A stretch of 64,000 nucleotides of DNA from an uncultured Stenotrophomonas sp. (GTDB taxonomy: Bacteria > Pseudomonadota > Gammaproteobacteria > Xanthomonadales > Xanthomonadaceae). The position numbers were made by a program, and so were the translations under genes. The notes beneath the pieces were generated by a model. The model did no database searches. It saw nothing but the letters and a program-made list of their open reading frames with translations, and had not been told where the DNA came from. The stretch spans positions 41,570-105,569 of the forward strand of contig NZ_CAMFIA010000014.1 in NCBI RefSeq assembly GCF_945952405.1, read 5' to 3'. Shown here piece by piece: positions 9,416 to 62,762 of the stretch. Position 1 is the stretch's first letter; every line of letters begins with the position of its first letter.

Positions 9416-12400
9416 CTACATGCCCCTGCTGGCCACGCGAATCTGGACATCGTGCTGCACCCGCTGATCGTCCAGTTGCTGCTCAAGCTGGTTGGCCAGG
9501 GCGCGCTGATTCGCTTGCTGGCTCACCACATCGAACTGCTGCATTGATGCTTCAACCAAGGTTTGTGCGGCTTGCTCGGTGGGCATCGCCGCACGCCGGT
9601 GCGCGGGGTTGCTCGGTTCGCCTTGAACAACGAACAGGGTATGCCCGGCCGGTCTGTTAGCCGTGGCATTGCTCAACAGTACGTGGTCCACCCGATCCAG
9701 ATCATTGTCCTTGGCCAGCACCAGCAGGCTGGCGGTCATCCGCTCGCTGACCGCATCGAAGCTACGGCCATGTTTGGCGTCCAGCGCGGCCACCCCAACC
9801 CGCACCTGCTGATAGAGGGCGTGATCGGGATGACCGGGCTGCGTTGGCGATGACGGAGGGGCCTGTTCAAGCAGTTCCTCCACACGCTGATGCACCTGTC
9901 GATGCACGGCTTGGTCTGGATGCGTAGGAACGGCAGCGGGTATCGATGGTGCTGTCTCCAGCAGGGCAGGAATATCGCTGGAAGGCTGGGGTGTCTGCAC
10001 CCATCCCGACTGGAGCGGTTCTGGACGCTCAACTTGAGCCCCAGCCACGCCCATCGGCTGTGTTTGGCTGGGTGCTGACGGGGTGTGGATCGCAGAGACA
10101 GTTGCTGCTGCGCGCGCCTCCCGCTCGGCCGACGCATCGACCGATGGAGGCGATGACGATGCGACAGGCTCCGGTCTCGGCTCCTCGCCGTGCACCGGCT
10201 TCCGAGGCGGCTCCGCAGGCTCAGGTACCATCGGCGCGGCTGTCACGGCTGTGCGGTGTTCCTGGACCTGCACCGTCACGTTGGGCGTGCGTGATCCCTG
10301 ATCTTCGCCATGTGCATCGATCATCACTTGCGGCGTAAGACGCTCTTCAACAGGTTCGTCCGGTACCTGAGCCACCGTCGATGCCGCCACTTGCTGCGTC
10401 TGCGGTCCCGAAACGCCCAGGCGATTGGCTTCCTGCAAGGATTGTTGATAGGCATCACGCTCCCGTGGCGAGAGCGCAGCAATGCGCAGCTCCGGCGAGT
10501 CGGGAATCGGAGCTGGGTCCTGTCGCTGTGCCCGGATCTCATTCCACGCCTGCCGCAGCTCATCGGTCGTGGTGGTCGCCACCGGCTGCGCTATGCCATC
10601 CGGACCCACCTGATAATGGATGATCGGGCTGTCCGCACCCAGCGTACCGGTTGCCCCCGGGCGAAGCTCCTGCAGGGTTGCTCCGGTAATGCCATGCGCT
10701 TCCCGGGTGCGCGCGGTGGCCAGCACGATGGCCTGCTGCCATTCGGGGTTCAGCTGGGTCCCCACCGTCTGATAGCGATGGAGCAGTTCGTTCCGTTCAG
10801 CCTGCGACTGCGTCGGCGCCGGTCGGGCTTCGATTTCGGCCAAGGCTTGTGCGGAACGCTGCAGAGACGGCTGTCGGATCTGCTGCGTCAACTCCAGTTC
10901 CAGCGCCAGGTTGCCACTGGCTGTCCGGCCTGCGTGAGTCCACTGGCCCGCGTCATCACGCAGGTAGAGCTGATTGTCCGAGCCGCGCACAGCGTTGGGC
11001 TTGGCCCTGGCCGACTCGACAGCAGCGGGCACCGCGATGAAATCCTGTGAACGCTGGGCCGCGTAGCTCTCCAGATAGGCCGCTGCAAGGGCTTCCTGAC
11101 CCTGTGCAATGTTGCGCTCAATCCGCGACAGCGCCTCCTGGTTGAGTTCGCGGGCGCGCTCCGGGGTGGCTACCTGGGTGGCATAAATGCCTTGGTCATT
11201 GACACCGGCCAGTCCTGCTTTGACCTGTCGTTGCCATTGCTCTGTCTGCGGATCACGACGCCAGTTCTGGTTATCCAGCCCGTGCTGGTCGCTTGGCCGT
11301 GCCGGGATACTGAACGGGTCCAACGGTGCGGGCGCCTTGCCCAGTGCCTGTTCAACCGCCGCGCGGCTGGCATAGGCACCCAGCTCGCGGGCCTTCTCGT
11401 AGCCGGCCCCAACAGGGCTCGTAGTGGGGTTATCCACGCCATCGGGTGTGCGGTCGATGGGCGCTTGGCGCTGCCAGTTGCGCCCGCTGAACTGCCATTC
11501 CACCCCTGACGTGTCGATCTGGTGATAGATCGCGCGGTTGTCCAACAGGTCTGCGCCCTTCTCGAACGCCTTGCTCATCAACAGCGCATCGGCCACCACC
11601 AGCGCCGCTGGCGCAAAGCTGGAGGTGCCCACCAGGTAGGCGCTGGTCGTTCCACCCAGCCAGCCGCCTGCATTGCGGGCCAGTGCATGGTTGACCTCCG
11701 ATTGTGCAGCGGCGGCATTGCCCTGCTCCAACAATTCGGCGGCGCGGCGCGTGGTGATGACAGCATCGGCGCCAGAGGCCAACAGACCGCCCGAACGCAC
11801 CAGTGTACTGGCCGAGGCATCGCCCAACAGGATGCCCATCGTGGCAAATCCCTGCTGCTCTCGGGGTACGCGGATACGGTACGCCGCTTCCTCGCCCAGG
11901 GAGCGCTCTACAACCACAATGGCCGCTGGCGACATGGTCACGCGGCCCTCGTGGTGAGCATTGGCGATGGCCAAGGACAACCCGCTGCGCTGCAACTCAA
12001 TGTTCCCGCCCCGCGTCAGCGGCCGGGCGTCGATGTGGATCTGGTGGAGCGCGGTGACAATGCGTGCTTCGGAATGCACCGTGGCGCCCCAGCCGTGGTC
12101 CACGCCGGTGAAGCCCTTCAGGCGCTCAATCTGTTGAGTGTGAGCTTGGTAATAGGCCGGGGCGTTGCGGAAGAAGTCCTGAACTTTCTGGCTGGTCAAC
12201 GCGGGGGAGCTGCCGACTGGCGTGTTGGTGTTCAAGTCGCCGTTGATGAGCCCGACTTTGACGGTGTCGCGTAACCGTTCGATACGCTGAGCCATTCGAT
12301 CCAATGCATCAGGATCGCCCAGCAATGCCGCCTTGCCGTCCCGGGTTACTTGAAGGTCATTTAAGTGGCCGAGTATCCCCTTCTGGTACTCGGCCAGTGG

Positions 12401-12589
12401 GCCGCCACTGTGTGGCGTGATCCCCATCGCCTGCGCAAACTGTGGACTTGCCGGCAGGAATAGCCTGTTTTCGGGAGCATGGATATCGAGCTTTCCGACC
12501 CGTTGAAGTTCGTATAGCAGTTCACTTCTTTTCAGCGTCTGCTGCTCGATGCTGTGGTGCTCCTGGAAATGCGTCCGGTAACTGGACAT
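9416..12589 (-). CDS. Large T4SS antibacterial effector with C-terminal XVIPCD domain
   Basis: A 1057-residue protein. The last 138 residues (about 920-1057) match the XVIPCD secretion domain: HPDHALYQQV, then RVDHVLL at +47 and FVVQGEPSNPAH at +67, followed by a Gln-rich tail. In Xanthomonadales this domain binds VirD4 and marks T4SS effectors. Residues 1-400 form a soluble region plus a Gly/Ala-rich, partly hydrophobic stretch (about 255-370); 400-690 is a region with WRRDPQTEQW and YLRDDAGQW motifs; 690-920 is a Pro-rich linker. No toxin fold was recognised. A strong AAGGAG lies about 8 nt before the ATG. Three immunity-gene copies precede it; since these lack signal peptides, a cytosolic target is likely. 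Confidence 0.85.
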   Translation of the reverse strand: MSSYRTHFQEHHSIEQQTLKRSELLYELQRVGKLDIHAPENRLFLPASPQFAQAMGITPHSGGPLAEYQKGILGHLNDLQVTRDGKAALLGDPDALDRMAQRIERLRDTVKVGLINGDLNTNTPVGSSPALTSQKVQDFFRNAPAYYQAHTQQIERLKGFTGVDHGWGATVHSEARIVTALHQIHIDARPLTRGGNIELQRSGLSLAIANAHHEGRVTMSPAAIVVVERSLGEEAAYRIRVPREQQGFATMGILLGDASASTLVRSGGLLASGADAVITTRRAAELLEQGNAAAAQSEVNHALARNAGGWLGGTTSAYLVGTSSFAPAALVVADALLMSKAFEKGADLLDNRAIYHQIDTSGVEWQFSGRNWQRQAPIDRTPDGVDNPTTSPVGAGYEKARELGAYASRAAVEQALGKAPAPLDPFSIPARPSDQHGLDNQNWRRDPQTEQWQRQVKAGLAGVNDQGIYATQVATPERARELNQEALSRIERNIAQGQEALAAAYLESYAAQRSQDFIAVPAAVESARAKPNAVRGSDNQLYLRDDAGQWTHAGRTASGNLALELELTQQIRQPSLQRSAQALAEIEARPAPTQSQAERNELLHRYQTVGTQLNPEWQQAIVLATARTREAHGITGATLQELRPGATGTLGADSPIIHYQVGPDGIAQPVATTTTDELRQAWNEIRAQRQDPAPIPDSPELRIAALSPRERDAYQQSLQEANRLGVSGPQTQQVAASTVAQVPDEPVEERLTPQVMIDAHGEDQGSRTPNVTVQVQEHRTAVTAAPMVPEPAEPPRKPVHGEEPRPEPVASSSPPSVDASAEREARAAATVSAIHTPSAPSQTQPMGVAGAQVERPEPLQSGWVQTPQPSSDIPALLETAPSIPAAVPTHPDQAVHRQVHQRVEELLEQAPPSSPTQPGHPDHALYQQVRVGVAALDAKHGRSFDAVSERMTASLLVLAKDNDLDRVDHVLLSNATANRPAGHTLFVVQGEPSNPAHRRAAMPTEQAAQTLVEASMQQFDVVSQQANQRALANQLEQQLDDQRVQHDVQIRVASRGM

Positions 12590-12626: not shown

Positions 12627-13268
12627 TCAGCGATTCACAACGTCGTAGAACCAGACGCCGTTGGTGCGCTTGGCGGTGACGATACCTGCTGCGGCCACGG
12701 CATCCTTGAACACACGGTCACAGAACACCTCGCCGCTAAATGCCAGCCTGAAGACATGCGCCGAGCCTAGTACGTCACGCTTGAAGGCCAAACGCGTCCC
12801 ACCTGCCAGGCTGTAGTGTTTGCCTGCCTCGTAGTCGTCACTGATGATGATGTTGAGAGTTGAAGCTTCTTCATCCAATGCATCCAGTGTCCTAGTTACA
12901 TCGCAGAGGAAATAGGTTGGTCCTCTGGAGCCATCAGCCAGACGGTAGTCGGTATCGACAAAAACAAAGGCGTCCGGGTCCACTGCCTCCATCACCTGGC
13001 GGAGCCGTTCCGACACCAGCCAGTAGCCACTCATCCCCCCTTCCAGGTCTTCCGGCAGTACGCCTTCGCGCGGGTAGTAGACCAGGCGCGGAACTTCCCG
13101 CAGTGGAGGGAAGCCGCCTTCCTCCGGCTTCAAGATCAGCCGAGGAGGAGTAAGGAGTGCTTGTCGGTTCTCAAAGACGACGCCGTGACCCTTTCCACCC
13201 CGGCCAACGTCGGGCCTGAGCTGAAAGAACTCTCCCGCCTTGGGTTGATTGGTCATTGCTGGTTCCAT
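12627..13268 (-). CDS. Imm11-like (DUF1629) immunity protein, copy A next to the effector
   Basis: A 213-residue soluble protein without a signal peptide. Features resembling the Imm11/DUF1629 family are GYWLVSERLRQVMEAV (about 81-96), YFLCDVTRTLDALDEEAS (about 118-135), a VFRL strand and a C-terminal VFCDRVFKDAVAAAGIVTAKRTNG. Imm11 proteins neutralise polymorphic toxins. Start codon uncertain: MTNQPKAG, four codons later, has a slightly better ribosome-binding site. It ends 37 bp before the effector ATG, so effector and immunity are probably co-transcribed. Visibly lower GC than the flanking core genes. Confidence 0.75.
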   Translation of the reverse strand: MEPAMTNQPKAGEFFQLRPDVGRGGKGHGVVFENRQALLTPPRLILKPEEGGFPPLREVPRLVYYPREGVLPEDLEGGMSGYWLVSERLRQVMEAVDPDAFVFVDTDYRLADGSRGPTYFLCDVTRTLDALDEEASTLNIIISDDYEAGKHYSLAGGTRLAFKRDVLGSAHVFRLAFSGEVFCDRVFKDAVAAAGIVTAKRTNGVWFYDVVNR

Positions 13269-13804
13269 CGTGTCCTGACCTGTCCATATGCCTGCGGCTT
13301 TTCCGCACGCGAACAGTAACCCGTGATCATGGGTGGCCCGTCAAGCCGGGCCGGCGCCGACAGGGAGCCGGGTGCTTCAGTTGCGCCAAGCACCTGTCCG
13401 CGCCCGCAGAAGTCAGGACGCTCTGAAGTGCCGCAATCCCTTGTTACCAGCAACGATGGCATGTTGGAAAAGCAGCCCAGGCAACTGGAGACCCGTTGTC
13501 CTCTTGGGCATGCCGAGTGCATTGAGCGGCAAGGGATTTCATCGGCAGCGCTACCTGCCAGGCAGAAGCAGGGGGCATTGCCAGATCCGTGTCGCCGCCC
13601 CTCAATCCATCGCCTTCCTGAAACACTGCAAGCAGGGAAGGATTTATTCCTGGACGCTCTTGGAGGACCTTTTCATCCCTACCGGGTTGCCGCCGAACGG
13701 GTGTCCTTTTGCCAGCTCGATGAGGTCGGTCGCGACATCCTTGCCGCAGGGAGCCTCAGGCAAATCCGCGGCCTTCTCCTTCCTTGTCGCCCCCTGATCT
13801 GCCG
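13269..13804. other. Spacer between immunity copies A and B
   Basis: No convincing full gene. The half next to gene A (13269-13575) looks identical to the equivalent stretch before genes B and C and may hold the promoter of each copy. An 89-residue frame through it on the minus strand is preserved only because the DNA is identical. The other half differs between units and carries a short frame described at 13644. Confidence 0.6.
13644..13763 (-). pseudogene. Short TTG-start frame in spacer, possible effector or gene remnant
   Basis: A 39-codon frame (LPEAPCGKDVATDLIELAKG, HPFGGNPVGM, KRSSKSVQE) follows immunity copy B where the effector gene follows copy A, downstream of the same AAGGAAGGAG sequence. 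The frame recurs in the next two spacers with a few substitutions. It could be the stub of a gene lost when the array formed, or non-coding. No domain recognised. Confidence 0.3.
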
Positions 13805-14446
13805 TCAGCGATTCACAACGTCGTAGAACCAAACGCCGTTGGTGCGGTTTGCGGTGACAATGCCTGCTGCGACCACGGCATCCTTGAACACACGGTCACA
13901 GAACACACCGCCGTGGAAGGGCAATCTGAAGACGTGTGCCGAGCCCAGCACATCACGCCTGAACGCCAAGCGCAGCTCACCCGTCATGTCGTAGTACTTG
14001 CCTGCCTCGTAGTCGTCACTGATGATGATGTTGAGAGTTGAAGCTTCTTCATCCAATGCATCCAGTGTCCTAGTTACATCGCAGAGGAAATAGGTTGGTC
14101 CTCTGGAGCCATCAGCCAGACGGTAGTCGGTATCGACAAAAACAAAGGCGTCCGGGTCCACTGCCTCCATCACCTGGCGGAGCCGTTCCGACACCAGCCA
14201 GTAGCCACTCATCCCCCCTTCCAGGTCTTCCGGCAGTACGCCTTCGCGCGGGTAGTAGACCAGGCGCGGAACTTCCCGCAGTGGAGGGAAGCCGCCTTCC
14301 TCCGGCTTCAAGATCAGCCGAGGAGGAGTAAGGAGTGCTTGTCGGTTCTCAAAGACGACGCCGTGACCCTTTCCACCCCGGCCAACGTCGGGCCTGAGCT
14401 GAAAGAACTCTCCCGCCTTGGGTTGATTGGTCATTGCTGGTTCCAT
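13805..14446 (-). CDS. Imm11-like (DUF1629) immunity protein, copy B (middle)
   Basis: 213 residues. Identical to copy A up to about residue 155, then different at YYDMTGELRLAFRRD, RLPFHGG and VAAGIVTANRT. The differences cluster in the C-terminal third, the part most likely to decide which toxin is bound if specificity resides there. No signal peptide. It is followed not by an effector but by the short remnant at 13644, so it is an orphan immunity copy. Confidence 0.75.
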   Translation of the reverse strand: MEPAMTNQPKAGEFFQLRPDVGRGGKGHGVVFENRQALLTPPRLILKPEEGGFPPLREVPRLVYYPREGVLPEDLEGGMSGYWLVSERLRQVMEAVDPDAFVFVDTDYRLADGSRGPTYFLCDVTRTLDALDEEASTLNIIISDDYEAGKYYDMTGELRLAFRRDVLGSAHVFRLPFHGGVFCDRVFKDAVVAAGIVTANRTNGVWFYDVVNR

Positions 14447-14981
14447 CGTGTCCTGACCTGTCCATATGCCTGCGGCTTTTCCGCACGCGAACAGTAACCC
14501 GTGATCATGGGTGGCCCGTCAAGCCGGGCCGGCGCCGACAGGGAGCCGGGTGCTTCAGTTGCGCCAAGCACCTGTCCGCGCCCGCAGAAGTCAGGACGCT
14601 CTGAAGTGCCGCAATCCCTTGTTACCAGCAACGATGGCATGTTGGAAAAGCAGCCCAGGCAACTGGAGACCCGTTGTCCTCTTGGGCATGCCGAGTGCAT
14701 TGAGCGGCAAGGGATTTCATCGGCAGCGCTACCTGCCAGGCAGAAGCAGGCGCGTTACCAGATCAGTGTTGCTGCCCCGCAATCCATCGCCTTCCTGAAA
14801 CACTGCAAGCAGGGAAGGATTTCTTCCTGGGCGCTCTTGGACGACCTTTTCACCCCTACCAGGTTGCCGCCGAACGGGTGTCCATTTGCCAGCTCAATGA
14901 GGTCGGTCGCGACATCCTTGCCGCAGGGAGCCTCAGGCAAATCCGCGGCCTTCTCCTTCCTTGTCGCTCCCTGATCTGCCG
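14447..14981. other. Spacer between immunity copies B and C
   Basis: Same organisation as the A-B spacer: about 310 bp apparently identical to it next to gene B, then a divergent part with a short frame at 14755. No other gene seen. Confidence 0.6.
14755..14940 (-). pseudogene. Second copy of the short TTG-start spacer frame
   Basis: A 61-codon frame beginning with TTG (LPEAPCGKDVATDLIELANG, then HPFGGNLVGVKRSSKSAQEE and a further 20 codons). Compared with the copy at 13644, several codons differ and the stop lies further on. A third, truncated version (DVATDLIPLARGHPFG) is at about 15965-16075. Function unknown. Confidence 0.3.
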
Positions 14982-15623
14982 TCAGCGATTCACAACGTCG
15001 TAGAACCAGACGCCGTTGGTGCGCTTGGCGGTGACGATACCTGCTGCTGCAACGGCATCCTTGAACACTCGGTCACAGAACACGCCGCCGTGAAATGCCA
15101 GCCTGAAGACATGTGATGAGCCCAGTACGCTTGACTTGAATGCCAAACGTGTCCCGCCCGCCAAGCTGTAGTGTTTTCCTCCCTCGTAATCGTCACTGAT
15201 TACTATGTTCAGCATGGAAGCCTCCTCATCCAATGCATCCAACGTTCGGATCACGTCGCAGAGGACGTAGGTTGGTCCTCTGGAGCCATCAGCCAGACGG
15301 TAGTCGGTATCGACAAAAACAAAGGCGTCCGGGTCCACTGCCTCCATCACCTGGCGGAGCCGTTCCGACACCAGCCAGTAGCCACTCATCCCCCCTTCCA
15401 GGTCTTCCGGCAGTACGCCTTCGCGCGGGTAGTAGACCAGGCGCGGAACTTCCCGCAGTGGAGGGAAGCCGCCTTCCTCCGGCTTCAAGATCAGCCGAGG
15501 AGGAGTAAGGAGTGCTTGTCGGTTCTCAAAGACGACGCCGTGACCCTTTCCACCCCGGCCAACGTCGGGCCTGAGCTGAAAGAACTCTCCCGCCTTGGGT
15601 TGATTGGTCATTGCTGGTTCCAT
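14982..15623 (-). CDS. Imm11-like (DUF1629) immunity protein, copy C (promoter-distal from effector)
   Basis: 213 residues. The first 118 residues match copies A and B, but the region from YVLCDVIRTLDALDEEASML onward carries its own changes (NIVISDDYEGG, FKSSVLGSSH) while the end (HGGVFCDRVF, VTAKRTNG) mixes features of A and B. This is the first immunity gene in transcription order. As with B, no effector follows it directly. Confidence 0.75.
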   Translation of the reverse strand: MEPAMTNQPKAGEFFQLRPDVGRGGKGHGVVFENRQALLTPPRLILKPEEGGFPPLREVPRLVYYPREGVLPEDLEGGMSGYWLVSERLRQVMEAVDPDAFVFVDTDYRLADGSRGPTYVLCDVIRTLDALDEEASMLNIVISDDYEGGKHYSLAGGTRLAFKSSVLGSSHVFRLAFHGGVFCDRVFKDAVAAAGIVTAKRTNGVWFYDVVNR

Positions 15624-57496: not shown

Positions 57497-58408
57497 ATGC
57501 CCCTGTTGCGTTCCATGCCTGTGTTCGCGTTCGCGTTTGCGCTTCCGCTTCCGCTGGGGGCGTGCGCGCAGCGTGATGTGCCGCGCAACATGTCTCCCAC
57601 GCAGACCAACGAGCAGGGGTGCACACGCAAACGCAGCATTGGCCCGCAGGACGCCTATGCCGTGCCAGTACCGCTGAAGCAGGCCTGTGTTGGCCCGTAC
57701 CTGCTGGAGCTGCCGCAGAACTACTACTACAACCAGATGGGGCCGTGGCACGACGATAGTTTTTCCTTGGCATTAGAGTACCCGTCATTGCAGCCCTTCA
57801 AGCCGGGTGAGCGGATCAACCCCAGTGTGGATGTGGGCATACGCACGGTGACTGTCAGTTATTCGTACATCAGCCGTCTTGATGTACGACAAGCGCTTCG
57901 GAACCAGTACACGCCCATGGAGTATGAGAAGGACGATCCCGCTGCATCGCTGGCAACACGCATAAAGGGAGATTCCCGGTATGGCCTGATTCCCTACTAT
58001 GCCGACCTTGAGCGCATTCGCGCGTTCGACCGGAAAAGAATGGGCAGGGAACGTGCCCCGGGTGTCGGATCCTGGTACCAGGATTGGTTCGTGGCGAGCG
58101 ATGACGACGGTCAAGTGCAGACATTCATCTGGTGCACCTCACGCGAAGCGGTCGATCCAGGCGTTGAGTTCCGCGATGGCAAGCTGGTAAAGAACGCAAA
58201 TCGCGGTGTTCCAGAGTGCGTGCACTGGTCCATCCTTCCAGGGCATCGAACCCTTGTGAAAATCCGCTATCCCCGGGTGGCATTGGAAAGCTGGCTTCGC
58301 ACGCAGGAGCGCGCGCATCAGCTATTCGTGGAAAACACCGATCAGCAGGACGGCGGCGAGGAGTCCACCACTTTGGATAAACAGGACGTTGTCGGTATCA
58401 GCTCTTGA
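57497..58408 (+). CDS. Putative immunity lipoprotein, paralogue 1
   Basis: 303 residues with a lipoprotein signal (MPLLRSMPVFAFAFALPLPL, then GAC). Mature protein begins CAQRD; no Asp at +2, so outer-membrane sorting is likely. First of four paralogues ending at an XVIPCD effector. Landmarks: ELPQNYYYNQMG (about 76), PFKPGERINP and the C-terminal EFRDGKLVKN region. Shares its N-terminal block with paralogue 4 and its central block with paralogue 3. The C-terminal half is the most divergent of the set. AAGGA precedes the ATG. The periplasmic-facing anchor fits immunity against a cell-wall or membrane toxin; no known fold recognised. Confidence 0.75.
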   Translation: MPLLRSMPVFAFAFALPLPLGACAQRDVPRNMSPTQTNEQGCTRKRSIGPQDAYAVPVPLKQACVGPYLLELPQNYYYNQMGPWHDDSFSLALEYPSLQPFKPGERINPSVDVGIRTVTVSYSYISRLDVRQALRNQYTPMEYEKDDPAASLATRIKGDSRYGLIPYYADLERIRAFDRKRMGRERAPGVGSWYQDWFVASDDDGQVQTFIWCTSREAVDPGVEFRDGKLVKNANRGVPECVHWSILPGHRTLVKIRYPRVALESWLRTQERAHQLFVENTDQQDGGEESTTLDKQDVVGISS

Positions 58409-58485
58409 TTCGACAGGTGACTCCACTGCAGGCTGATAAACCGATGAGCCGACATCGCGGCCAGAACTCGATTACAAGGACTGTC

Positions 58486-59466
58486 ATGCCCCTGTTCCGT
58501 TCCCTGCTGGTGTTCGCATTGGCGCTTCCGCTGGGGGCGTGTGCGCAGAGTGATGTGCCGCGCAAGCCTCCACGATTGCTGACCAATGAGCAGGGCTGCT
58601 CGATCACGATCGACAATCAGCCGACCAATCCCTACCAGGATCCATCGCCGATGGATCGCGCCTGCATCGGACCCTATCAGCTGGAGCTACCGCAGAACTA
58701 CTACTACAACCAGAAGGGGCCGGAGCACGATGGCAGCTTCGCGTTGGCGTTGGAGTATCCATCGCTGGAGCCCTTCAAGCCAGGCGAGCGGATCAACCTC
58801 ACGGTCGATGTTTCGGTGCGCTCGGTCACGATCAGGTACAGCTACGTTGATCGAGTTACCCCACAGGAGGTTCTACGGAGGGCCTATACGGCGCGGGAAG
58901 GGCGTGAAGATGATCCTTCTGCATCCTTGCGGGGGCGGATCGTCGGAGAGCCTCTGCATGGGCTTGTGCCGTACTACGTGGACATGGATAAGGTTCGAAG
59001 CTACTACCAAGGCAAAGGGTATCGCGAAGACGCGCCGGTGATGAGAGCGGATCTGTGGCACACCGACTGGTTTGTTGCGCGCGACGCATCTGGTGAGATC
59101 AGCCAGATCATCAAGTGCACGCCTCGCGAGATCACCGAATCGGGCGTCGAATACCGCGATGGAAAGATGGTGAAGAAGAAGGTCTACGGATTCGCGGAAT
59201 GCGGTCAGACATTCATCATCGAGGAATTGAGCACGGTGGTCGATGTGAACTACCCCCGTGAGGGGCTGGCGAACTGGCAAAGGATGGAAGCACGTGCGCG
59301 CGCGCTGCTGATTGACAACATCAGCAGGAAAAGAGCTTCTTCGCCCTCGATGCAGACTGAACCTGCAGGCCGTGAGAACAACACGTCCAGGCAGCCTGTC
59401 CGATGGGATAAACAGGCACTGCCGGTATCAGCCCTTGATTCGACAGGTGTCTCCGCTGCAGGCTGA
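58486..59466 (+). CDS. Putative immunity lipoprotein, paralogue 2
   Basis: 326 residues. Lipobox LPLGAC, mature start CAQSD. N-terminal block KPPRLLTNEQGCSITIDNQP matches paralogue 3, while the central EHDGSFALALEYPSLEPF and VDRVTPQEVLRRAYT block matches paralogue 4. The tail continues about 40 residues past the end of paralogue 3 because the repeated 3' segment is read in another frame. ATG 58486, not the in-frame ATT/ATG further up, since the lipobox and the AAGGA ribosome-binding site follow this choice. Confidence 0.75.
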   Translation: MPLFRSLLVFALALPLGACAQSDVPRKPPRLLTNEQGCSITIDNQPTNPYQDPSPMDRACIGPYQLELPQNYYYNQKGPEHDGSFALALEYPSLEPFKPGERINLTVDVSVRSVTIRYSYVDRVTPQEVLRRAYTAREGREDDPSASLRGRIVGEPLHGLVPYYVDMDKVRSYYQGKGYREDAPVMRADLWHTDWFVARDASGEISQIIKCTPREITESGVEYRDGKMVKKKVYGFAECGQTFIIEELSTVVDVNYPREGLANWQRMEARARALLIDNISRKRASSPSMQTEPAGRENNTSRQPVRWDKQALPVSALDSTGVSAAG

Positions 59467-59515
59467 TAAACCGATGAGCCGACATCGCGGCCAGAACTCA
59501 ATTACAAGGACTGTC
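59409..59515 (+). repeat. Direct repeat: leader shared by lipoprotein genes 2, 3 and 4
   Basis: About 105 bp upstream of paralogue 3 (from AAACAGGCACTG to AAGGACTGTC) recurs at 60437-60543 before paralogue 4 and, for the last 78 bp, at 58408-58485 before paralogue 2. A shorter related leader precedes paralogue 1. It is the junction of the tandem gene duplication. Confidence 0.85.
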
Positions 59516-60388
59516 ATGCCCCTGATCCGTTCCCTGCTTGTGTTCGCGTTGGCGCTTCCGCTGGCGGCGTGTGCGCAGAGTGATGTGCCGCGCAAGCCTC
59601 CACGATTGCTGACCAATGAGCAGGGCTGCTCGATCACGATCGACAATCAGCCGACCAATCCCTACCAGGATCCATCGCCGATGGATCGCGCCTGCATCGG
59701 ACCCTATCAGCTGGAGCTGCCGCAGAACTACTACTACAACCAGATGGGGCCATGGCACGACGGTAGCTTCTCCTTGGCATTAGAGTACCCATCATTGCAG
59801 CCCTTCAAGCCGGGTGAGCGGATCAACCCCAGTGTGGATGTGGGAGTGCGCACAATCCGTATTCGCTATACGTACGTCGGCAGGATTGATGTACGGCAGG
59901 CGCTTCGAAATGCCTATACGCCACGCTCGTATGCACCGGATGATCCGGCGGCATCACTGGAGGGACGCATCCAGGGAAAGCCTGTGCATGGGCTTGTTCC
60001 GTACTTCATCGATATGCAGAAGATCCGCAACTACCAGCGTGCACGGGGCATTAGAGAAACCGCGTCAGTGATGAAGCCTGACTCTCACTACGATTGGTAC
60101 GTTTCACGTGACGCATCGGGCACGATCGATCAGTTGATCGAATGCACGCCACGCGAAATTTCTGAATCGGGGGTCGAGTACCGCGACGGGAAGATGGTGA
60201 AGAAGCGCATTATTGGCTTTGCCGGCTGCAGGCAGCAGTTCATCATCGAGGAGCTCAGCACCATTGTTGATGTGAACTATCCCCGTGAGGGGTTGGCGAA
60301 CTGGCGAAAGATGGAAGCACGTGCGCGCGCGTTGCTGATTGACAACATCAGCAGGAAAGGAGCCTCTGCGCCCCTCGATACAGACTGA
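59516..60388 (+). CDS. Putative immunity lipoprotein, paralogue 3
   Basis: 290 residues, lipobox LPLAAC. N-terminal block as in paralogue 2, central WHDGSFSLALEYPSLQPF and DVRQALRNAYTPRSYAP as in paralogue 1, C-terminal SRDASGTIDQLIECTPREIS as in paralogue 4. The gene stops at LDTD where an extra base relative to paralogue 2 shifts the frame. Clearly assembled from parts of its neighbours. Confidence 0.75.
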   Translation: MPLIRSLLVFALALPLAACAQSDVPRKPPRLLTNEQGCSITIDNQPTNPYQDPSPMDRACIGPYQLELPQNYYYNQMGPWHDGSFSLALEYPSLQPFKPGERINPSVDVGVRTIRIRYTYVGRIDVRQALRNAYTPRSYAPDDPAASLEGRIQGKPVHGLVPYFIDMQKIRNYQRARGIRETASVMKPDSHYDWYVSRDASGTIDQLIECTPREISESGVEYRDGKMVKKRIIGFAGCRQQFIIEELSTIVDVNYPREGLANWRKMEARARALLIDNISRKGASAPLDTD

Positions 60389-60543
60389 ACCTGCAGGCCG
60401 TGAGAACAACACGTCCAGGCAGCCTGTCCGAAGGGATAAACAGGCACTGTCGGTATCAGCTCTTGATTCGATAGGCGTCTCCGCTGCAGGCTGATAAACC
60501 GATGAGCCGACATCGCGGCCAGAACTCGATTACAAGGACTGTC

Positions 60544-61398
60544 ATGCCCCTGTTCCGTTCCCTGCTGGTGTTCGCGTTGGCGCTTCCGCTGGGGGCGTGT
60601 GGGCAGAGTGATGTGCCGCGCAACATGTCTCCCACGCAGACCAACGAGCAGGGGTGCACACGCAAACGCAGCATTGGCCCGCAGGACGCCTATGCCGTGC
60701 CAGTACCGCTGAAGCAGGCCTGTGTTGGCCCGTACCTGCTGGAGCTGCCGCAGAACTACTACTACAACCAGATGGGGCCGGAGCACGACGGCAGCTTTGC
60801 ACTCGTGTTGGAGTATCCATCACTGGAACCCTTCAAGCCAGGCGAACGGATCAATCTCTCGGTTGATGTTTCGGTGCGCTCGGTCACGATCAGGTACAGC
60901 TACGTTGATCGAGTTACCCCGCAGGAGGTCCTGCGGAGGGCCTACACGCCTTGGGAGGGGCGTGAGGATGATCCGTCCGCATCCTTGCAGGGGCGAATCA
61001 TTGGCGAGACTGTGCATGGGCTTGTGCCGTACTACGTGGACATGGACAAAGTCCGGAGCTATTTCCGGACGCAGGGGTACCGCGAGAATGCCCCCGTGAT
61101 GAAGGCTGGGGCGCACTTTGACTGGTATGTCTCTCGTGATGCATCGGGCGCAGTCAACCAGCTGATCGAGTGCACACCACGGGAAATCTCCGAGTCGGGC
61201 GTTGAGTACCGCGACGGGAAGATGGTGAAGAAGAACGTGCACGGGTTCGCGTACTGCAATCAGACGTTCATCATCGATGATTTGGATACGGTTGTTCGAG
61301 TGCGCTATAGCCGCGAAGGCCTGGCAGACTGGAAGCGGATTGAAGCTCGTTCACGTGCACTGCTGGTTGAGAACATCAGGAAGGAGCGCAACAAGTGA
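60544..61398 (+). CDS. Putative immunity lipoprotein, paralogue 4 (next to effector)
   Basis: 284 residues, lipobox LPLGAC with mature start CGQSD. N-terminal block NMSPTQTNEQGCTRKRSIGP as in paralogue 1, central block as in paralogue 2. Its stop overlaps the effector GTG start by four bases (GTGA), so the two are translationally coupled; this makes it the best candidate for the cognate immunity protein. Confidence 0.8.
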   Translation: MPLFRSLLVFALALPLGACGQSDVPRNMSPTQTNEQGCTRKRSIGPQDAYAVPVPLKQACVGPYLLELPQNYYYNQMGPEHDGSFALVLEYPSLEPFKPGERINLSVDVSVRSVTIRYSYVDRVTPQEVLRRAYTPWEGREDDPSASLQGRIIGETVHGLVPYYVDMDKVRSYFRTQGYRENAPVMKAGAHFDWYVSRDASGAVNQLIECTPREISESGVEYRDGKMVKKNVHGFAYCNQTFIIDDLDTVVRVRYSREGLADWKRIEARSRALLVENIRKERNK

Positions 61399-62762
61399 GT
61401 GGCCTGACCCGAAATGATCTCGACATCCTCACGGCGTATGCGGAGGCGGGTAACCGCGAACTCTACTTCAACTACCTGGCACACAAGGAAGGCAGCGACG
61501 GCTATGCGTTGCTAGCGTTGGGTGTCGTACGCAACGACAACATTCCTGGCGCCACTGCCAACACCTTTGCCAATCGTCAGGCGCTCGCCGACGGTGTAAA
61601 TATGAGCGAGAGCCAGTGGCAAGAGTTCGGGGTTACGCTGATGCGACACGATCTTGCCCTGCGCAAGCAGTGGTTCACGGAGGGACGCCCTGATTTAGCG
61701 CTTAATCTTCCAGTCTTGGATGTCCGGGATTCCCATGATCTAACTTTCGACGAATGGAGAGTCGATCGCTCCGGCTGGACGCCCTACAAGCTCCTCGAGG
61801 CAGCGCGTGCATACGGTGGTGAACCGGAAGCCGAAGCCGCCTGGAAGATGCTGCTGGACAACCGCAATCTGGGGCTGGATCGCGGCGCGCAGACTTCGAT
61901 GCTGGTGCTCCGCAAGTACCGCGACCACTTGCAGGATCCGGATGGCTATCTGCGTGAGATGGCGGATGCGCGCGCGCCGCATGGCCTGATCAAGCCGGTG
62001 ACCAATCTGGATCCTGATCGGGTGCGTTACGATGGAAACGACTACGTTCACGGTGTTGACGGTTGGCGGCAGAAGTCCGCTGAGCTTGAGGTGGGGTCGT
62101 TGGGGCCGACGGCGGTGCATGTGCGGTCGCCGCCGGCGAGCGACCTGAAGGTCACCAACCCGGAGACCCTGCGCTATCTGGACGATGCGCGCGCCACCCG
62201 GCAACTGCGCGAAGAGCTGCGACAGCAGTTCCATCCGGAGGATCCCAACCGGGATCGGCCGATCATGCGGAGCCCGGAGGTGCTGAGCGACGCTGCGCCA
62301 CTGGACCCGCAGCCGGAGCGTCCGCTGGCAGCGGCAGTGGATCCAACCTCACCACAGCATCCGCGGCATGCGCTGTACGCGCAGTGCGTGGCCGGTGTGC
62401 AGGGGCTGGATGCGCAGGTCGGCAAAACCTGGGACCGGCACAGCGAATGCATGGCGGCCAGCCTGACCACGCTGGCCGCAGGGCAGGGGCTGCAGCGGGT
62501 GGACCATGTGCTGCTGAATGGCCCGGCGCCCGGCCTGCAGCCGGGGCAGAACGTCTTCGTGGTGCAGGGCGAGCCGTCCGACCCGGCCCATCTGCGTACG
62601 CAGATGCCCACCGCACAGGCGCTGGCCACGCCACCCGAGCAGTCGTTCCAGCAGCTGGCGGTGAACGATCAGCGCCAGGCGCAGGAACAGGAGCAGGCGT
62701 TGCAGCGCAGCCAGGAGGAACAGCTGCAGCCGGCCCGCGCCGCGCCGGTCATGCAGGCCTGA
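61395..62762 (+). CDS. T4SS antibacterial effector with C-terminal XVIPCD domain
   Basis: A 455-residue protein. The last 134 residues are an XVIPCD (HPRHALYAQCVAGVQGLDAQ, RVDHVLL at +47, FVVQGEPSDPAH at +67, then a Gln-rich tail), with the same motif spacing as the effector at 9416. The N-terminal 320 residues (LDILTAYAEAGNRELYFNYL, DNIPGATANTFANRQALADG) contain no toxin motif I can name; the start resembles that of known Stenotrophomonas effectors paired with lipoprotein immunity, but I cannot confirm it. GTG start with GGAAGGAG upstream. Lipoprotein partners suggest a periplasmic target such as peptidoglycan or lipid. Confidence 0.85.
   Translation: MSGLTRNDLDILTAYAEAGNRELYFNYLAHKEGSDGYALLALGVVRNDNIPGATANTFANRQALADGVNMSESQWQEFGVTLMRHDLALRKQWFTEGRPDLALNLPVLDVRDSHDLTFDEWRVDRSGWTPYKLLEAARAYGGEPEAEAAWKMLLDNRNLGLDRGAQTSMLVLRKYRDHLQDPDGYLREMADARAPHGLIKPVTNLDPDRVRYDGNDYVHGVDGWRQKSAELEVGSLGPTAVHVRSPPASDLKVTNPETLRYLDDARATRQLREELRQQFHPEDPNRDRPIMRSPEVLSDAAPLDPQPERPLAAAVDPTSPQHPRHALYAQCVAGVQGLDAQVGKTWDRHSECMAASLTTLAAGQGLQRVDHVLLNGPAPGLQPGQNVFVVQGEPSDPAHLRTQMPTAQALATPPEQSFQQLAVNDQRQAQEQEQALQRSQEEQLQPARAAPVMQA

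Follow-up and report, generated by a model that had tools for sequence, protein, structure and literature searches.

In the stretch of 64,000 nucleotides analysed here, hereafter the window, which comes from an uncultured Stenotrophomonas sp., four tandem lipoprotein genes (lp1 to lp4) precede a single XVIPCD effector gene. On balance, and with some reserve, we read these four genes as a recombining immunity repertoire directed against effector variants of kin, a T4SS counterpart of the arrays known from T6SS and T7SS. The toxin and immunity families themselves are already known, and the new part is the patchwork immunity array. What was observed and underlies this reading is the family, the fold, the T4SS genes, the mosaicism of the copies, their low dN/dS, the recurrence in the genus, and truncated effectors at loci elsewhere.

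The gene order proposed in the initial annotation holds: the four paralogues (57497-61398) lie 5' of the 455-residue effector, with all five frames open on the forward strand, and the four-base overlap between lp4 and the effector is formed by the lp4 TGA (61396-61398) lying over the effector GTG at 61395 (Table 1). The starts of lp1-lp4 were chosen by eye from the lipobox and a common AAGGAC-GTCATG context; longer N-termini can be read for lp2-lp4 (MSRHRGQ... or further upstream), probably from leader that is not translated. Also read by eye, the signal peptides of all four are alike in kind and include a lipobox, LPLGAC or LPLAAC. Compared as sequences, their paralogy is far beyond chance, with identities to lp4 of 60% (lp1), 76% (lp2) and 68% (lp3), and with the C-terminal part of lp1 0.39-0.42 identical to those of lp2-lp4. 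Comparison of the spacers indicates that the C-terminal extension of lp2 reads into sequence that is spacer after lp3. The true overlap apart, the spacers and the effector gene have only 9-10-base words in common, and promoter and terminator scans returned no more than in shuffled sequence. The G+C content is 0.58-0.60 in both immunity arrays of the window (58-62 kb, and 12-16 kb for the one described below), against 0.62-0.71 in its other 2-kb steps.

Table 1. Features of the immunity and effector locus, in positions of the window (~, approximate).
Feature	Position	Strand	Basis
lp1, lipoprotein immunity paralogue of the Smlt3025 family; type I hairpins, C-terminal part the most diverged	57497..58408	+	NF050129, E 3.2e-35
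Leader common to lp2-lp4, before lp2	58394..58485	+	Spacer alignment, ends hand-counted
lp2, paralogue; hairpin type II, C-terminal extension	58486..59466	+	NF050129, E 1.2e-33
Leader copy	~59424-59515	+	Spacer alignment, ends hand-counted
lp3, paralogue; hairpin type II	59516..60388	+	NF050129, E 2.7e-36
Leader copy	~60452-60543	+	Spacer alignment, ends hand-counted
lp4, paralogue; hairpin type I, overlaps effector start, presumed cognate	60544..61398	+	NF050129, E 2.4e-33
173-base run in lp4 identical to lp1, most of two N-terminal hairpins	~60570..60743	+	Position by hand
Overlap of lp4 stop and effector GTG, 4 bases	61395..61398	+	Sequence
X-T4SS effector, Smlt3024 family, 455 aa	61395..62762	+	NF050128, E 2.2e-91; PF20410
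N-terminal toxin domain; mostly helices, plus a small region of strands	61395..62291	+	AlphaFold2, mean pLDDT 89.1 (residues 1-300)
XVIPCD secretion signal domain, in 3' stretch near-identical to contig C3 copy	62349..62660	+	PF20410

The effector contains an XVIPCD in residues 319-422 (PF20410, E 5.9e-31, 107.5 bits for a cut-off of 24.9) and matches NF050128 over residues 1-443 of 455 with 306.8 bits, below the 800-bit equivalog cut-off; by this match it is a homologue of Smlt3024, not the equivalog. The N-terminal part, to which no known activity had been assigned before, thereby has a family; a structure search with the AlphaFold2 model of the toxin domain gave no fold match. A solved relative is 9P3H. 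The lipoproteins match NF050129 with 115.6-125.3 bits, under its 500-bit equivalog cut-off, and possess the fold of Smlt3025 (6PDK) and also an FrpD-like topology. FrpD is not known to have an immunity role. Its partner in Neisseria meningitidis, FrpC, differs from an X-T4SS effector in being one of the RTX proteins, with export through a T1SS (PMC6759196). Smlt3024 is secreted by the X-T4SS and slows the growth of E. coli from the periplasm, not from the cytoplasm; it forms a stable complex with Smlt3025, of which only the lipoprotein form neutralises it (PMC6759196). That the lipoproteins are immunity partners of the effector is partly supported by this known pair of immunity lipoprotein and T4SS effector; binding and neutralisation of the effector by lp1-lp4 are presumed from family membership, with lp4 as the putative cognate.

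The genome of the window encodes VirB4, VirB6, VirB8, VirD4 and VirB10 on contig C2. Across the genus, VirD4 is present in 41 of the 42 genomes with the toxin domain versus 15 of the 49 without it (Fisher p 5e-12), which bears out the expected link of the locus to T4SS-bearing strains; the sole genome with the toxin domain and without this VirD4 (G071) is 76% complete. The host probably delivers a toxin that slows growth into rival bacteria.

The immunity copies are mosaics of one another. Compared in 50-base steps, lp1, lp4 and an immunity gene on contig C3 of the same genome are identical over ~150 bases; in this stretch lp2 and lp3 agree with each other at 98-100% and with the other copies at 48-86%. 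Further along the genes the pairing changes, lp1 now matching lp3, lp2 matching lp4, and the C3 copy matching lp3. The longest run of common polymorphic sites, taken singly, was unreached in 2000 permutations for nine of the ten pairs; judged by the largest run found in any pair, eight of the ten exceeded the 95% level (19) and six every permutation (32). In the hairpin segment lp1/lp4 have a dS of 0 and lp2/lp3 one of 0.04, and in the C-terminal part dS is 1.09-2.58 or saturated among all lp1-lp4 pairs, with lp3 and the C3 copy closer than these at 0.47. Such switching of partners along the genes, together with near-zero hairpin dS despite C-terminal divergence, points to gene conversion. Where defined, dN/dS is 0.10-0.44, rough values with dS near saturation, at which positive selection on the immunity copies was not seen. 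Taken together, low dS in the hairpins, high dS in the C-terminal parts and these ratios mark the copies as ancient and under constraint, with recent conversion of some segments. The exchanged segment covers the first four strands of the predicted structure (residues 14-16, 22-24, 39-44 and 47-52, by hand count); in FrpD, the N-terminal strands belong to the probable partner-binding site (PMC6759196).

This pattern extends beyond the window. Hairpin types I and II occur together in another genome (G065), and type II also in G021:C23, so the types are common to several species, by age or by transfer. In the C-terminal part, lp2-lp4 fall in one supported clade alongside genes of other genomes, and lp1 groups with other genomes with weak support (86/62). 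Among 27 genes of the window type, hairpin identity is 0.81 within arrays versus 0.69 between them (label permutation p 0.0008), and C-terminal identity 0.49 versus 0.45 (p 0.086). DNA identity by successive thirds, at 13 of the 17 multi-copy loci described below, is 0.786, 0.611 and 0.601 within arrays (32 pairs) and 0.658, 0.568 and 0.566 between them (253 pairs). Three of 38 pairs contradict the pattern of closer 5' parts.

At a threshold of E 1e-10, the toxin domain was detected in 42 and the immunity protein in 46 of the 91 genus genomes. Among the 68 loci found, 35 are simple pairs, 17 (in 16 of the 91 genomes, neighbouring pairs counted in) contain two or more immunity genes, and 11 are lone immunity genes, some of them weak or at contig ends. 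The fourfold amplification had been called unusual; the window has the longest unbroken run of immunity genes before an effector. Multiplicity as such is recurrent, at 17 of 68 loci, and one genome (G027) has five immunity genes in total. Five of the 91 genomes carry immunity without effector, two of which (G066, G067) are also without this VirD4. The reverse case, an effector match with no immunity gene, is a single genome (G083). Outside the genus, at least 29 genomes of a family-level sample of 297 match, 24 of these once, among the best eight candidates per genome. Counted over 78 loci (75 named and three own, from partly overlapping genomes), simple pairs make up 55. In the genome of the window, a diverged pair, with effector 45% and immunity protein 32% identical, lies on contig C11; an immunity gene of this C11 type is found near other effector-like genes at two loci (L177 in G017, L184 in G062), where its own effector was not found.

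The locus is flanked on one side by a gene for an Lrp-type regulator, which neighbours a biopterin-dependent hydroxylase gene, and on the other by a patatin-like gene. Where both flanks are on one contig, as in 85 genomes, the interval is under 600 bases in 43. Eight other genomes carry the locus at this same site with 1 to 5 immunity genes, split in one of them (G030) over two contigs, and in G046 a close relative of the locus lies elsewhere, with 112 bases between the flanks. In 23 genomes these are 2.2-2.5 kb apart; the one such insert examined (L186, in G025) contains an ORF of 666 aa, whose AAA_30 match is weak and under the cut-off; a 683-aa ORF adjoining the effector in G070 looks similar. 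A search for signs of mobility gave only partial matches to the toxin domain, in 2 of 72,556 plasmid and 1 of 50,697 phage records, none over more than 80% of its length, and this origin was set aside.

A second copy of the locus on contig C3 (L015, G000:C3:100300-105300) consists of a truncated remnant resembling lp1, a single complete immunity gene and an effector gene that loses its reading frame after ~90 codons. The two effector genes are identical at 594 of 600 bases from position 62147 of the window, and at 400 of 400 from 62247, against 75% in the toxin part, a contrast that suggests an exchange anchored in the XVIPCD. Four of 14 within-genome effector pairs combine a 3' part at 0.94 identity or more with a toxin part at 0.87 or less (the window and C3, L. 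pythonis 120/123, X. nasturtii and D457), and two (Luteibacter and BIGb0135) show the reversed contrast. For the XVIPCD as a homology arm these comparisons are suggestive only.

At two loci an immunity gene is separated from the present pair by a truncated effector, which spans 89 profile positions in Stenotrophomonas sp. BIGb0135 (L099) and 31 in Pseudoxanthomonas dokdonensis (L124). By analogy, these are what the displacement model outlined for Vibrio cholerae (PMC5361080) would leave. The stretch from lp1 to lp4 showed no remnant of an effector, and tandem duplication with conversion could therefore suffice at the window locus. Elsewhere, 3 of 19 extra copies (I1 and I2 of L164, I2 of L139) find their best paired relative in the immunity gene of an effector clearly unlike the local one (identity 0.49-0.54), and the copy adjacent to the effector follows the local effector. 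For the other 16, lp1-lp3 included, the best paired relative points to no clear foreign target, and several of them, at L124, L165 and L167, where sibling identity is 0.81-0.92, may have arisen by simple duplication. We also compared immunity and effector distances, using 96 of the 101 profile matches to the immunity protein and 71 of the 87 to the toxin, with pieces and rows with stops left out. The overall correlation is 0.93 (71 pairs), mostly clade structure, and as a means to single out the cognate copy in the window the approach failed, with lp1-lp4 all at r 0.79-0.81 with the effector. As one gene (L098, 0.60-0.68 identical) is moreover the best paired relative outside the genome for all four, sequence alone identifies neither the cognate copy nor any separate targets.

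In the repertoire that we favour, the effector would pass through the T4SS into a rival's periplasm and slow that cell's growth. lp4, which overlaps the effector gene, would protect the producer, in keeping with its presumed cognate role, and lp1-lp3 would be retained variants that protect against the related Smlt3024-type effectors of kin. The array would have grown by tandem duplication, and incoming immunity-effector modules, putatively at the window locus as well, would probably have displaced older effectors and left their immunity genes behind. Gene conversion would exchange the 5' block, made up of the leader, the signal peptide and the two N-terminal hairpins, while the C-terminal parts remain diverged.

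The four tandem copies, with all frames open and a leader common to lp2-lp4, might instead have been amplified to supply more inhibitor of the one local effector, and the shared C-terminal clade of lp2-lp4 would fit this, though it includes genes of other genomes. A recent amplification would however give near-identical copies, and every window copy has a C-terminal dS of at least 1.09 or saturated, which makes such a dosage effect unlikely in our view. The extensive recombination, along with the lp1-like remnant on contig C3, could also suggest functionless leftovers whose similarity is kept by recombination alone. Against this, lp1-lp4 have retained open frames, a lipobox and constrained dN/dS, and at three sister loci (contig C3, G021:C23 and G065) the effector frame is broken and the immunity frames are open; we judge it quite improbable that the copies are debris.

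It has also been considered that the copies might protect different compartments against the same effector, and not against different effectors. Alternative cytosolic forms have been proposed for several X. citri immunity proteins in a review (PMC6536674), and lp2-lp4 do have other in-frame starts. All four window genes nevertheless have the same kind of signal peptide with a lipobox, and Smlt3024 is reportedly toxic only in the periplasm, where Smlt3025 protects only as a lipoprotein (PMC6759196), so that we give a division by place very little credence.

The repertoire reading gains context from known systems. The closest is Smlt3024/Smlt3025 of S. maltophilia K279a, with the same effector family, an XVIPCD, an upstream lipoprotein immunity gene and the 6PDK fold; in that strain a single immunity gene stands before the effector, behind an HTH gene and near T4SS genes (PMC6759196), whereas the window has four mosaic immunity genes at a different site. 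K279a has a second homologous pair, Smlt0500/Smlt0501 (PMC6759196). The T7SS esaG and tipC arrays of firmicutes likewise comprise tandem, non-identical immunity genes with recombination between paralogues through conserved blocks, and TipC has a probable lipoprotein signal (PMC9484751). They differ from the window in secretion system, protein families and phylum (PMC9484751), and the block exchanged in the window takes in the N-terminal hairpins, unlike theirs. The T6SS orphan immunity arrays of Vibrio cholerae also have several immunity genes per effector, old immunity genes having been retained when effectors were displaced; those orphans lie 3' of the module and their authors argue against duplication (PMC5361080), while the extra copies in the window lie 5' of the effector and show heavy conversion among themselves. 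Two traits of such arrays, several non-identical immunity genes beside one effector and recombination between paralogues, are present in the window. No earlier description of X-T4SS immunity arrays was found in the literature searched, which covered few subscription papers and no preprints, and a word search gave no mention of them in PMC6759196, PMC11253643, PMC10933484, PMC8262851 and PMC6536674.

The window contains a second array, of an unrelated family. Three tandem Imm11 genes (12627-15623, reverse strand) precede a 1057-residue XVIPCD effector (9416-12589, reverse strand), and they are identical in runs of 660-753 bases that span the upstream region and the 5' part, followed by an abrupt fall to 79-85%. 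Judged by sequence, this is the same 5'-uniform, 3'-variable design as in lp1-lp4. Multiple genes, from 2 to 8, occur at 13 of the 32 Imm11 loci of the genus, counting Imm11 genes alone, whatever their neighbours, and with 14 of 82 matches left out as fragments. Loci with 5 to 8 tandem Imm11 genes are found in five genomes (G053:C1:68995-75104, G062:C101, G065:C1, G025:C1 and G044:C1).

A more tentative proposal, which we regard as possible and no better than that, is a combinatorial immunity of the X-T4SS, in which toxin-binding hairpins and C-terminal cores would be cassettes recombined among tandem lipoprotein genes, with the 5' immunity block and the 3' XVIPCD serving as homology arms for module swaps. 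If true, it would let one locus yield new antidote specificities, and the design common to the Smlt3025-like and Imm11 families would then point to a general immunity diversification by this secretion system.

In the literature searched, every antibacterial T4SS effector comes with a single antidote. Arrays in which antidote genes recombine could account for the mutual tolerance of effectors among related strains, and for immunity genes that persist longer than their effectors. With lp1-lp4 and the C3 copy, one genome offers five natural mosaics in which to locate the part of the immunity fold that decides toxin specificity.
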